Shown piece after piece: positions 24,321 to 32,182 of a stretch of DNA of 42,731 nucleotides; position 1 is the stretch's first letter, and every line of letters begins with the position of its first letter. The notes below the pieces were generated by a model. It saw nothing but the letters and a program-made list of their open reading frames with translations. It searched no databases and was not told the origin of the DNA. Source of the stretch: Thermotoga sp. (GTDB lineage: Bacteria; Thermotogota; Thermotogae; Mesoaciditogales; Mesoaciditogaceae); NCBI GenBank assembly GCA_020722015.1, contig DYLQ01000015.1, positions 1-42,731 of the forward strand, read 5' to 3'. Position numbers and translations under genes: made by a program.

Positions 24321-25499
24321 ATGTTTGTAAAACCTTTTGGTGGGTTGGAAGCGCAAGATATAGACAGGATGAATTGTCCTCCTTACGATGTGGTTAGTTT
24401 GGAAGAGGCAAAGAGATTTGCGGCTGATCCTCATTCTTTCATGAGAATTATAAGGCCGGATGCGATCTCAAAACCAGGTGAAGACATTTACGAAGTCGCC
24501 GCTCGAGAACTCAACAGATTCATCGATGAGAAATTGTTCGTGAAAAACGAAAAGCCATCCCTTTACATCTACTCACAGAAGATGGACTCTCATGTGCAAA
24601 CCGGACTTATAGCATGCGTTCCTGCAAGTGCATATCCAGAACACATAAAAAGGCATGAACTGACAAGAAAAGAAAAAGAAGATGAAAGGATGAAACATAT
24701 CTTAGCAAGTCGTGCCCATACGGAACATGTCTTTTTGATATACAGATCGATGAAAGAGATAAAAAAATTGATGAGAATCGATCTTGGTAACCATCTTTAC
24801 AATTTCAAAACAAAAGATCCTGACACAATCCATGATGTCTATCGTATCGAAGATAATGCGTTGATTGAAGATATTGTTCAGGCATTTCAAGCAGTTGATG
24901 ATTTCTACATAGCGGATGGTCACCACAGAGCATCCGCATCTGTTAAAGTCGCACGGGAAATCGGCGGTACCGGAGAATGGAGTTATTTCATGGCAACGAT
25001 CTTTCCACACGATGAGCTTCAAATACTGGGTTATCACAGGATTGTCAAAGATCTCGGTGATAGATCTGATTTCTTAAAAGACATAAAAGAGGCCGGATTT
25101 GATGTAAAAAAAATGTATGGCGTATCTCCAAAACTTTCCCAACACACCATTGGAATGTACATGGAAGGAGAATGGTATGCACTGAAAGCAATGGATGTCG
25201 ATGATTCAGATCCGATAAATGCGCTTGATGTTTCTATACTTCAAGAGAGAATTCTCGATAAGATCCTTGGCATAAAAGATCCAAGAACAGATCCAAGGCT
25301 TGATTTCATTGGAGGAATTAACGGCCTTGCGGATTTAAAAAAAGCAGTTGATACCAATGGATATAAAGTTGCTTTTTACATGTATCCGACAAAGGTTGAA
25401 AGTGTTATGGAAGTTGCAGATAAAAATATGATAATGCCTCCTAAGTCAACGTGGTTTGAACCGAAACTCAGAAGTGGTTTTCTTGTTCATCCCTTTTAA
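24321..25499 (+). CDS. DUF1015 family protein
   Basis: A 392-residue cytosolic protein of the DUF1015 family. The family-typical N-terminus NCPPYDVVSLEEAK, the ERMKHILASRAHTEHVFLIYRS segment and the very conserved YIADGHHRASAS near residue 200 are all present, as is LGYHRIV. The GHHR motif suggests a phosphate- or nucleotide-handling site, but I cannot assign a reaction with confidence. Length is close to the usual 400-420. AGAAAGGAAGAG precedes the ATG. It sits 3 nt before the LexA-like gene and is part of the tsaB operon. Confidence 0.88.
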   Translation: MFVKPFGGLEAQDIDRMNCPPYDVVSLEEAKRFAADPHSFMRIIRPDAISKPGEDIYEVAARELNRFIDEKLFVKNEKPSLYIYSQKMDSHVQTGLIACVPASAYPEHIKRHELTRKEKEDERMKHILASRAHTEHVFLIYRSMKEIKKLMRIDLGNHLYNFKTKDPDTIHDVYRIEDNALIEDIVQAFQAVDDFYIADGHHRASASVKVAREIGGTGEWSYFMATIFPHDELQILGYHRIVKDLGDRSDFLKDIKEAGFDVKKMYGVSPKLSQHTIGMYMEGEWYALKAMDVDDSDPINALDVSILQERILDKILGIKDPRTDPRLDFIGGINGLADLKKAVDTNGYKVAFYMYPTKVESVMEVADKNMIMPPKSTWFEPKLRSGFLVHPF

Positions 25500-25502
25500 G
25501 AG

Positions 25503-26075
25503 GTGATATCAATAAAGGAATTAACGCAGCGTCAAAGAGAAATATACCAATTCATAAAAGATTTTCATGATAAAATGGGATATCCCCCAACGATAAGGGA
25601 AATATCCGATCATTTTGGGTTTTCCTCTCCAACGGGAGCACTTGTGCATATAGAGGCTATTGAGAAAAAAGGATACATAAAAAGAGATCACGCATCGCGT
25701 GGAATAAAAGTCATAGCAAAGAGTCCTTTCGACGTAACCTTTGCCGAGATGATCGGCAAAATGGATAAAAGTGGTAAAATTTTTAAGAACACGGAACGGA
25801 TTTACATTCCAGTTCCTTCTAACGAGAAAGCGCTTTTAACCTTTGAATCGCTTGTTGATATCCCTGAATTTGGGATTTTCAAGGGAGATTACGTTGTTTT
25901 TACCCCTGGAACAACAGTTAAGGGGCTTGTACTCGTCAAAAAGGGTGAAGAATACGTAGTTGGCATTTTTAAAAAAGAGAATTTTGAAAATTTGGTTGGA
26001 GAAAAAATAAACGATTTCGATTCAGAGTATGTTTTTTACGGTGTTTTGAGGATTCCAATTCAAGGTAGAAAATAA
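25503..26075 (+). CDS. LexA-like repressor apparently lacking the autocleavage machinery
   Basis: A 190-residue protein. Residues 1-70 are a standard LexA winged helix (LTQRQREIYQFI, GYPPTIREISDHFGFSS, IEKKGYIKRDHASRGIKV). The C-terminal S24 fold is recognisable (GIFKGDYVVFTPG, then EEYVVGIFKKEN), but the active site is not. Aligning on GIxxGD places Asp119 where the nucleophilic Ser should be, and aligning on ExxVK places Gly154 where the Lys should be. The cleavage-loop Ala-Gly is replaced by DKS around residues 88-90. Ser116 is the only nearby serine and is three residues out of register. Expected to bind DNA but not to be cleaved in the usual RecA-dependent way. GTG start with GAG/AGG just upstream. 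Confidence 0.85.
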   Translation: MISIKELTQRQREIYQFIKDFHDKMGYPPTIREISDHFGFSSPTGALVHIEAIEKKGYIKRDHASRGIKVIAKSPFDVTFAEMIGKMDKSGKIFKNTERIYIPVPSNEKALLTFESLVDIPEFGIFKGDYVVFTPGTTVKGLVLVKKGEEYVVGIFKKENFENLVGEKINDFDSEYVFYGVLRIPIQGRK

Positions 26076-26087
26076 CGGGGTGATTTT

Positions 26088-27413
26088 TTGAACGTAAATT
26101 ACGCTTTCTTTGAAAAGACAGACGGAGTATTTGAATCTTTTCAAAAGAAACTCATTCAGTTCGGCATAAAAATTTACACCGTCGGAGATTTTGATGATGT
26201 ATTTGATCTCAACGTTGAAATCAAGAAATCCGGCGGAAGTGATTTTAAAGGCATAGATCTTGTTGTACTTGAGATGCCTGGAGAAAGTCAAAGGCTCGAA
26301 GAGAGTTATATCCTCAACTCCATAGAACCCTGGAAAATAGCGGTCATTTATTCGTGCGTGAAAAATTACAGAAATTCTGTCGTTGTAATCGATCCGGATG
26401 ATTTTGACAAAATAATAGAATCTCTTGAAGAGTGTGGAGACGTGACGCTTCAAGACAGAAGAATGTTTTCTTTAAAGGCTCTTTACAGACTTTTGAGGTA
26501 TAATTCTTCCATTCACAGAGAAATGAGTGAACTTTTTGCATCTGAAAAGTTTGAAACGCTTATTCTTGAGGAAAGATCTCCTTTAAGATATGGAGAAAAT
26601 CCGCAACAACTTGCTTATCTGGCAAAGATTGCAAAAACGCAGGCTTTTTTTGATTTTTTCGATGAAGACACACTTGTTGGTTTAAGTTACAATCAAATCA
26701 TTGACATTCATCTCGCACTCTCACTTTTGAAATACCTGGAAGAGAATTTCGCAGTCCAAGTGCATCATGGAATAATAACAAATGTGAGAAAAAAGCATTT
26801 TAATTTCAAATCGTTAAGGGGTGTCATGGCGGCGAACTTTGTGAACGACGAACTGATAAAAGGATTAAAAGGCAATGATTTTGATATCGTAATACTTCCT
26901 GAAATGCCGGATCTTTCCAAGGTGGAAATCAGAAAATTCATAAAGATAAAAGATATACCATCCGTTGAGGTTGAAAAAGAATACAGATTTATGGACGGAA
27001 ATTTTCTCATTCAAACTCCAGATGATCTTTCAAACATGAGATTTCTTTCTGACGAATTTGACGTCCAGTACAAATTTGCCAACGTCATTGTGGCACTTTC
27101 AAGATCAATGGCCTGCTGTATCTTCAAAGATTACGAGTTGATGTCCATTAGCACAGGTCAGGCCGAACAGATTGATGCGCTTGAAACAACTTTACGGAAA
27201 GCTGAAAAAAAATCGATGAATTTGGATGGTGCTATATGTGCCTTTGATGGTCCTATAAAAGACATAGATGTTGTAAATAGTGTCATCGGTACAGGTATAA
27301 AGACGATCATAGAACCCGGAGGCGTCAAAGAAGACAGAATCGTAAGAGAAAAACTCGAAGAAAATGGTATAAAACTTATATTTTCTGGAAAAAGAAGGTA
27401 CAAGATATCTTAA
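26088..27413 (+). CDS. Divergent PurH-like protein (AICAR transformylase/IMP cyclohydrolase fold) missing catalytic signatures
   Basis: A 441-residue protein with the PurH layout. The MGS-like N-terminal half is eroded: the loop with KTLHPxxxGG and the IGGPxMxRAAAKN motif are gone, leaving only CVKNYRNSVVVIDPDDFDKI. The transformylase half keeps PLRYGENPQQ (165-174), LSYNQIIDIHLALSL and IIEPGG. The catalytic KHxNPCG is VHHGIITN (226 onward), the GQxSRVDS motif is GQAEQIDA, and ASDAFFPF is CAFDGPI. Activity as a normal PurH is doubtful; it may bind a purine intermediate or have another role. TTG start with GGGGTGATT. It directly follows the LexA-like gene (12 nt). Confidence 0.75.
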   Translation: MNVNYAFFEKTDGVFESFQKKLIQFGIKIYTVGDFDDVFDLNVEIKKSGGSDFKGIDLVVLEMPGESQRLEESYILNSIEPWKIAVIYSCVKNYRNSVVVIDPDDFDKIIESLEECGDVTLQDRRMFSLKALYRLLRYNSSIHREMSELFASEKFETLILEERSPLRYGENPQQLAYLAKIAKTQAFFDFFDEDTLVGLSYNQIIDIHLALSLLKYLEENFAVQVHHGIITNVRKKHFNFKSLRGVMAANFVNDELIKGLKGNDFDIVILPEMPDLSKVEIRKFIKIKDIPSVEVEKEYRFMDGNFLIQTPDDLSNMRFLSDEFDVQYKFANVIVALSRSMACCIFKDYELMSISTGQAEQIDALETTLRKAEKKSMNLDGAICAFDGPIKDIDVVNSVIGTGIKTIIEPGGVKEDRIVREKLEENGIKLIFSGKRRYKIS

Positions 27414-31476: not shown

Positions 31477-31779
31477 CTATTGTTCAGGATTTTCTTCGTA
31501 AATCACAATATATCCGTCATCGATCATCTTTAAGATCGTATCTTTCATTCTCTCGTATTGTCTTGTGGTGTAAAGATGGGGTTCTATTCGTGGAATACCA
31601 AAGGTGTTTTTAACAATTGAGTAAGCATCTGATCGCACTTTTCCTTTGTATATGACAAGTACATCTACATCGCTTGCAACTGTGTACTTATCCTTGGCAT
31701 ACGAACCAAAAAGGATAACTTTTGAGATAGGGAGTAAAGCTTTAAGAATCGAGGATTTGTCTTTCAACTTATTTATCAT
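31477..31779 (-). CDS. MNT-type nucleotidyltransferase antitoxin
   Basis: A 100-residue minimal nucleotidyltransferase. The catalytic core is VILFGSYAKDKYTVASDVDVLVIY (GSYAK, then DVD), typical of MntA-type antitoxins that AMPylate and silence the HEPN toxin. The frame extends upstream to 31956, but that part lies inside the HEPN gene in another frame. ATG 31779 has AAGGAAGAG before it and gives a normal MNT length, with an 11-nt overlap with the HEPN stop. Together they form a type VII-like toxin-antitoxin pair. Confidence 0.88.
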   Translation of the reverse strand: MINKLKDKSSILKALLPISKVILFGSYAKDKYTVASDVDVLVIYKGKVRSDAYSIVKNTFGIPRIEPHLYTTRQYERMKDTILKMIDDGYIVIYEENPEQ

Positions 31780-32182
31780 CTCTTCCTTGTTGTATTTCGG
31801 ATAAAATATCTGAACAGAATTTGACGATCTCATCTGCATATCCGACAAGCCTTCTCGCCTCCTTTTTCGTGTACTTTTTCCATGGACTGCCTGACGGATG
31901 GGCATCTGGATATCTCGTTGGTATGTAAGATTTGTCGAGTTCCAAAGCTTTTTCAATCAAATTCTTTGAAACATCGAAATGTTGATTTAAAGCCTCAAGA
32001 AGATCTGCTACTGCATGACCCCATGCTTGGGCTCCGATTTTCTGGAAAACCGCTTTTACAGCCTTTTCGGCCGCTTGTTGGGAAGAAAAGCACGACCAGT
32101 CGTAGAAACCGTTCTCCATGTCAAATTTGGCATGTTCGATATCTTTTTTAGCCTGATCAAGCCAATCTTGACTTCTTTCCAT
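31769..32182 (-). CDS. HEPN-domain toxin protein
   Basis: A 137-residue all-helical HEPN protein. It has the N-terminal DWLDQAKKDIEHAKFDMENG helix, the SSQQAAEKAVKAVF helix, and YIPTRYPDAHPSG, which contains the RNase-type Rx4H motif (R-YPDA-H). HEPN proteins of this kind are RNases inhibited by their MNT partner, whose gene overlaps the 3' end. The ATG follows GGAGGAACAGT. Its promoter seems to come from the end of a MITE-like repeat, and an 18-bp palindrome overlaps the predicted transcription start. Confidence 0.9.
   Translation of the reverse strand: MERSQDWLDQAKKDIEHAKFDMENGFYDWSCFSSQQAAEKAVKAVFQKIGAQAWGHAVADLLEALNQHFDVSKNLIEKALELDKSYIPTRYPDAHPSGSPWKKYTKKEARRLVGYADEIVKFCSDILSEIQQGRDDK

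Follow-up and report, generated by a model that had tools for sequence, protein, structure and literature searches.

An open frame of 190 codons on the plus strand (25503-26075) encodes a LexA-derived regulator, denoted LexA* here, which is located between a DUF1015 gene and a PurH-like gene. The window, that is, the whole 42,731-nucleotide stretch of DNA analysed, originates from an Athalassotoga-like bacterium in the family Mesoaciditogaceae (Thermotogota, class Thermotogae), and the assembly to which it belongs comprises 1.9 Mb in 166 contigs and is 96% complete. The Mesoaciditogaceae are hot-spring and vent bacteria that have been described as branching deepest in the Thermotogota. One cultured member with a closed genome is Athalassotoga saccharophila JCM 19762; its genome, taken to be G002, represents a same-genus relative of the window organism. 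The published chromosome of A. saccharophila NAS-01 has 1,957,762 bases (PMC7163026). The following features were mapped at the locus:

24321-25499, plus strand: DUF1015 gene, directly 5' of lexA*, a conserved neighbour that is probably on the same transcript
25500-25508, plus strand: Shine-Dalgarno sequence AAGAGGTGAT, overrunning the DUF1015 stop codon (anti-SD duplex, -13.1 kcal/mol)
25512-26075, plus strand: LexA*, from the probable ATA start to the stop codon, 187 aa
25512-25514, plus strand: probable near-cognate start codon ATA, from orthologue comparison
25515-25703, plus strand: LexA winged-helix DNA-binding domain (PF01726; omega 0.008-0.06)
25632-25634, plus strand: recognition-helix Thr at the slot of E. 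coli Asn41, from the alignment
25725-26072, plus strand: C-terminal domain with a LexA/S24-like fold, lacking the catalytic residues, from model and alignment
25767-25772, plus strand: Lys89-Ser90 at the position of the scissile Ala-Gly, from the alignment
25857-25859, plus strand: Asp119 at the slot of the nucleophilic Ser, from the alignment
25959-25964, plus strand: Val153-Gly154 at the slot of the general-base Lys, from the alignment
26088-27413, plus strand: AICARFT/IMPCHase (PurH)-like gene, directly 3' of lexA*, from a profile match

The match of the PurH-like protein (26088-27413, plus strand) to the AICARFT/IMPCHase model is partial (residues 92-228, 95.7 bits), the N-terminus being divergent. 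Elsewhere in the window, at 31477-32182 on the minus strand, a HEPN protein (PF05168) and the nucleotidyltransferase (PF01909) that follows and overlaps it make up a typical HEPN-MNT toxin-antitoxin pair.

The GTG at 25503, taken as the start codon in the first-pass annotation, lies within the Shine-Dalgarno sequence and was discarded. Translation almost certainly starts at the ATA at 25512, as judged from four orthologues in which a near-cognate start is strictly required, namely, those of G002, G003 (TGA ATA), G004 (TAG ATA), and G006. In these four genomes, no ATG, GTG, or TTG occurs between the upstream stop codon and the conserved N-terminus, which can begin only at ATA or ATT. The remaining five genomes have ATA or ATC at the start slot; in G000, G001, G008, and G009, a GTG is located two or three codons upstream, within the Shine-Dalgarno sequence or too close to it, and in G007, a CTG precedes the ATA. 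Thus, all nine lexA* genes have ATA, ATC, or ATT at this slot (the orthologues are L018, L021, L023, L024, L030, L033, L037, and L038), a kind of start codon that is rare in bacteria and might serve to control expression. Canonical lexA genes of Thermotogae have ATG, GTG, or TTG at the same or an adjacent slot.

LexA-domain genes were located in 61 genomes, and many of these were read. LexA* is present in 9 of the 10 Mesoaciditogaceae genomes (the window genome and eight of its nine relatives); no counterpart was found in G005, a draft that is 87% complete. The gene order in the family is tsaB-HEAT-mrp-(two genes in some)-DUF1015-lexA*-(cheW)-purH, and in the loci of other Thermotogae that were read, lexA follows archease or gyrA. 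A cheW-like gene separates lexA* from purH in seven family genomes (for example, L039:8996-9472, L041:8319-8846, and L042:10413-10901) and is absent from this position in G000 and G001.

That the DNA-binding half of the protein belongs to LexA, as initially annotated, was borne out by profile search: PF01726 (LexA_DNA_bind) covers residues 5-66 with 74.6 bits against a cut-off of 23.7, and the LexA winged-helix domain was detected in all nine family proteins. The best sequence match in the PDB is LexA of Thermotoga maritima (3k2z), limited to the DNA-binding domain; this protein is of the same class, its common ancestry with LexA* is supported by the tree, and the tree of the DNA-binding domain is compatible with vertical descent of LexA*. 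With the TIGR00498 (lexA) profile, the window protein scores 72.3 bits, below the cut-off of 110.95, its relatives 82-84, and canonical Thermotogae LexAs 173-285. In the recognition helix, the slot of E. coli Asn41 is occupied by Ser or Thr in 9/9 LexA* proteins and by Arg in 24/24 Thermotogae LexAs with an intact C-domain. This replacement suggests an operator different from that of the other Thermotogae LexAs, so that, judging from sequence, LexA* has probably changed its targets.

The state of the cleavage machinery was assessed in an alignment of 35 sequences, including 9 Mesoaciditogaceae LexA* and 26 comparison LexAs (24 from other Thermotogae families and 2 deltaproteobacterial). The reported replacement of the Ser, the Lys, and the cleavage site holds not only for the window protein (Asp119, Val153/Gly154, and Lys89-Ser90, respectively) but family-wide. 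At the scissile pair, all nine LexA* have Lys or Glu followed by Ser, Thr, Asp, Asn, or Ala, and never the Ala-Gly found in 26/26 comparison LexAs. The nucleophile slot contains Asp or Glu in each LexA* and Ser in every comparison sequence. The general-base slot is Val/Ile or Gly in LexA*, depending on the placement of a one-residue gap, and Lys in none of the nine; among the comparison LexAs, it is Lys in 25 of 26 and Arg once. The Arg belongs to L044 (G060), a LexA that is otherwise canonical. Thus, the REPLACEMENTS are real and common to the family: they are fixed across nine genomes from three GTDB genera, which rules out sequencing error.

The residues invariant in the LexA* C-domain across the nine sequences are G, G, P, S, D, Y, F, G, L, F-Y-G, and R, and no Lys or His is among them. 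Peptidase_S24 (PF00717) gave no match to the window protein at E <= 10 and none to the nine members at E <= 1. Ser116, which the first-pass annotation had raised as a catalytic residue that might act with a nearby Lys, is invariant in 9/9 LexA* but lacks a conserved Lys or His partner; a dyad of Ser116 and a new Lys was rejected because Lys is not conserved in any slot of the C-domain.

An AlphaFold model of the full-length protein (pLDDT 88) matches LexA. Because the alignment behind this model held canonical LexAs and could have biased it, a second model of the C-domain was built with just the nine family sequences (pLDDT 90.9, pTM 0.83). The top 18 PDB matches of the family-only model are LexA, lambda CI, or lambda-186 hybrid repressor chains, and UmuD' comes next, spurious matches aside. 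The best matches (1jhe, 2hnf, and 8s7g) have a probability of 1.00 but E >= 6.6e-3, and the fold match of the predicted model is moderate (best with 1jhe, TM about 0.55-0.56, E 6.6e-3). Thus, the structure prediction proposed at the outset yielded a LexA-like C-domain with LexA chains as the best PDB matches, and LexA* is predicted to keep the LexA beta-fold.

Selection was estimated from the unsaturated pairs G000/G001, G002/G003, and G006/G008, which gave omega of 0.008-0.06 for the DNA-binding domain and 0.136-0.16 for the C-domain. The ratio of dN in the C-domain to that in the DNA-binding domain is about 3-6 in most family pairs and mostly 1-2 in pairs of canonical LexAs. No frameshifts or stops were found in lexA* in the nine genomes. 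Although the C-domain changes rapidly, purifying selection acts on it; the gene is therefore not decaying, and the possibility that it is a pseudogene was rejected by dN/dS. The pattern of omega and dN indicates that the catalytic constraint is gone while the scaffold is still selected, for which dimerisation would be a natural reason.

The window genome and the closed A. saccharophila genome each contain one LexA-type gene, and recA is present once. The search for a second, canonical lexA, as suggested in the first-pass annotation, detected none in the window assembly or in A. saccharophila, nor was a hidden second LexA found in the other family genomes; the closed genome, with LexA* alone, leaves no place for such a copy. 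With all three elements of the reaction gone, no invariant Lys or His in the C-domain, and no second LexA, the initial proposal that this repressor is freed from RecA-driven autocleavage appears sound as far as sequence can tell.

Other potential damage switches were also considered. In G000, G002, and G003, the sole S24-type protein is an XRE regulator unrelated to LexA*, in which neither the Lys nor the Ala-Gly site survives; replacement of LexA by a canonical S24 repressor was rejected, this protein being itself dyad-defective. Canonical-looking XRE-S24 repressors are encoded in some relatives only (G005 and G006). The XRE-HTH regulator with the S24 fold occurs in at least six family genomes (L032, at G000:C146:5836-6090, L081, L073, L072, L083, and L071), with the Lys replaced by Phe, Tyr, or Arg and the Ser kept in the relatives and replaced by Thr in the window genome; a homologue lies divergently upstream of tsaB in G007 and a few kb 3' of lexA* in G004. 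A DdrO-IrrE switch of the Deinococcus type was rejected, as no IrrE-type M78 peptidase was detected in any of the ten family genomes. No Y-family polymerase was detected in these ten genomes, and T. maritima is likewise without a match.

The genes that a LexA would be expected to control in the SOS response offered no trace of an operator. The recA, uvrA, uvrB, and recN genes lie inside operons, with zero intergenic space wherever the junction was read, so that an operator would not fit next to them: recA comes after thpR (read in G000), uvrA after a glmM-like gene (G001-G004), and uvrB and recN after other genes, again without a gap. The shared palindrome that had been anticipated upstream of recA and the uvr genes was not seen 5' of recA, uvrA, uvrB, or recN where junctions were read, and none was seen at the promoter of the tsaB-lexA* operon. 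No LexA box of the E. coli or alphaproteobacterial type is present in the window or in L039, and no box of the B. subtilis type in the window, with one 4+4 match at L039:5466. An operator might be situated farther 5', at the promoter of an upstream operon (pgsA, glmM). In the first-pass annotation, the SOS response was considered rewired if this is the only LexA in the genome, perhaps with a different inducer; neither statement is supported as it was phrased. Given no operator, no intergenic space, and a changed recognition helix, an exit from SOS is likelier than rewiring.

Compared with the canonical LexA of E. coli, LexA* shares the two-domain fold and lacks the cleavage site, Ser119, and Lys156. 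The LexAs of close relatives in the T. maritima family (L002 and L010) retain the Ala-Gly, Ser, and Lys and are encoded at the ancestral lexA locus, unlike LexA*, which is encoded beside DUF1015 and purH. Another parallel in the Thermotogae is provided by genus g10 (L047, L048, and L052), where, as in the Mesoaciditogaceae, the sole LexA-type gene encodes a LexA DNA-binding domain without the cleavage machinery. However, in g10, the C-domain is replaced by about 80 unrelated-looking residues and the gene is at the apparent ancestral locus; the three LexA-domain frames have 157-170 codons and no S24 domain. Genus g10, which belongs to another Thermotogae family, lost the C-domain and autocleavage in an independent event.

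In Synechocystis sp. PCC 6803, LexA has Asp in place of the Ser and Gly-Gly in place of Ala-Gly and is not an SOS regulator; instead, it regulates salt-response and fatty-acid genes and is possibly tuned by phosphorylation (PMC3091678, PMC7567884). Like LexA*, this protein combines a LexA DNA-binding domain with loss of the Ala-Gly and the Ser. In LexA*, however, the Lys is gone too, the C-domain is shorter, and the recognition helix is altered; moreover, a whole family in another phylum has the loss fixed, whereas the Synechocystis papers report only that the site and the Ser are missing, and in one cyanobacterium. By analogy, Synechocystis LexA may thus be taken as a looser precedent, relative to which the loss of the Lys, the family-wide fixation, the change in the recognition helix, and the near-cognate start, all read from sequence, appear to be new.

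LexA is the SOS repressor that normally destroys itself upon DNA damage. With every self-cleavage residue lost and the DNA-binding half and the overall shape kept, LexA* has almost certainly left the classic SOS circuit and would act as an ordinary regulator. We consider it probable that LexA* descends vertically from LexA and is now a non-self-cleaving, RecA-independent transcription regulator. The C-domain would serve as a dimerisation scaffold, holding LexA* in a stable dimer on a palindromic operator, and the altered recognition helix would direct it to an operator unlike that of other Thermotogae. Then, recA and the uvr genes would not be under its direct control, and its regulon would be a non-SOS one. 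Its activity would be set by the amount made, from a gene within an operon and with a near-cognate AUH start, rather than by self-destruction, and could perhaps also be tuned by a ligand, a partner, or a modification.

A stronger role for such tuning, with LexA* acting as a sensor that binds, through its C-domain, a small molecule or a partner protein (for instance, the neighbouring CheW-like protein) and thereby switches DNA binding, seems rather unlikely. It would fit a C-domain that is under selection and has a conserved residue pattern peculiar to it (G, G, P, S, DY, F, FYG, R) and the conserved DUF1015-lexA*-cheW-purH neighbourhood, but the C-domain is the fast-evolving half, which suits a scaffold better than a specific pocket, and cheW is missing beside lexA* in G000 and G001.

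Somewhat more doubtful is an inversion of the LexA logic, where the repressor is controlled by making rather than destroying it, and the state of the ribosome and of translation sets the repression of a new regulon. The conserved AUA, AUU, or AUC start would make translation of LexA* sensitive to IF3 fidelity, so that the state of translation, not DNA damage, would determine repression. The Streptomyces sigR gene has a non-canonical GTC start that is repressed by IF3 (PMC5472188).

We regard it as improbable that LexA* is still an SOS repressor, inactivated by a RecA-stimulated host protease or with Ser116 as a substitute nucleophile. The invariance of Ser116, the presence of recA, and the lack of another obvious DNA-damage repressor in the genome speak for it; however, a C-domain without an invariant Lys or His argues against cleavage by Ser116, and E. 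coli LexA, too, carries a Ser three positions ahead of Ser119 that is not catalytic. The lost Ala-Gly site, the lack of operator-sized space 5' of recA, uvrA, uvrB, and recN, and the changed recognition helix also count against a role in SOS. Finally, a decaying relic, to which the lost catalytic residues and the missing G005 counterpart might point, is hardly credible given the purifying selection on both domains (omega far below 1), nine genomes free of frameshifts and stops, the conserved synteny, and the incompleteness of the G005 draft (87%).

Annotation of LexA usually relies on the DNA-binding domain, and a RecA-cleavage switch is then presumed. LexA* is LexA by descent, not by mechanism, and therefore the label of SOS repressor should not be applied to it. 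The Mesoaciditogaceae would thus be a family without any self-cleaving LexA and, together with g10 and Synechocystis, would bring the number of separate departures from the SOS circuit to at least three. Two questions become testable in these bacteria: why a LexA C-domain is still selected after cleavage has been lost, and how the response to DNA damage proceeds without a self-cleaving LexA.
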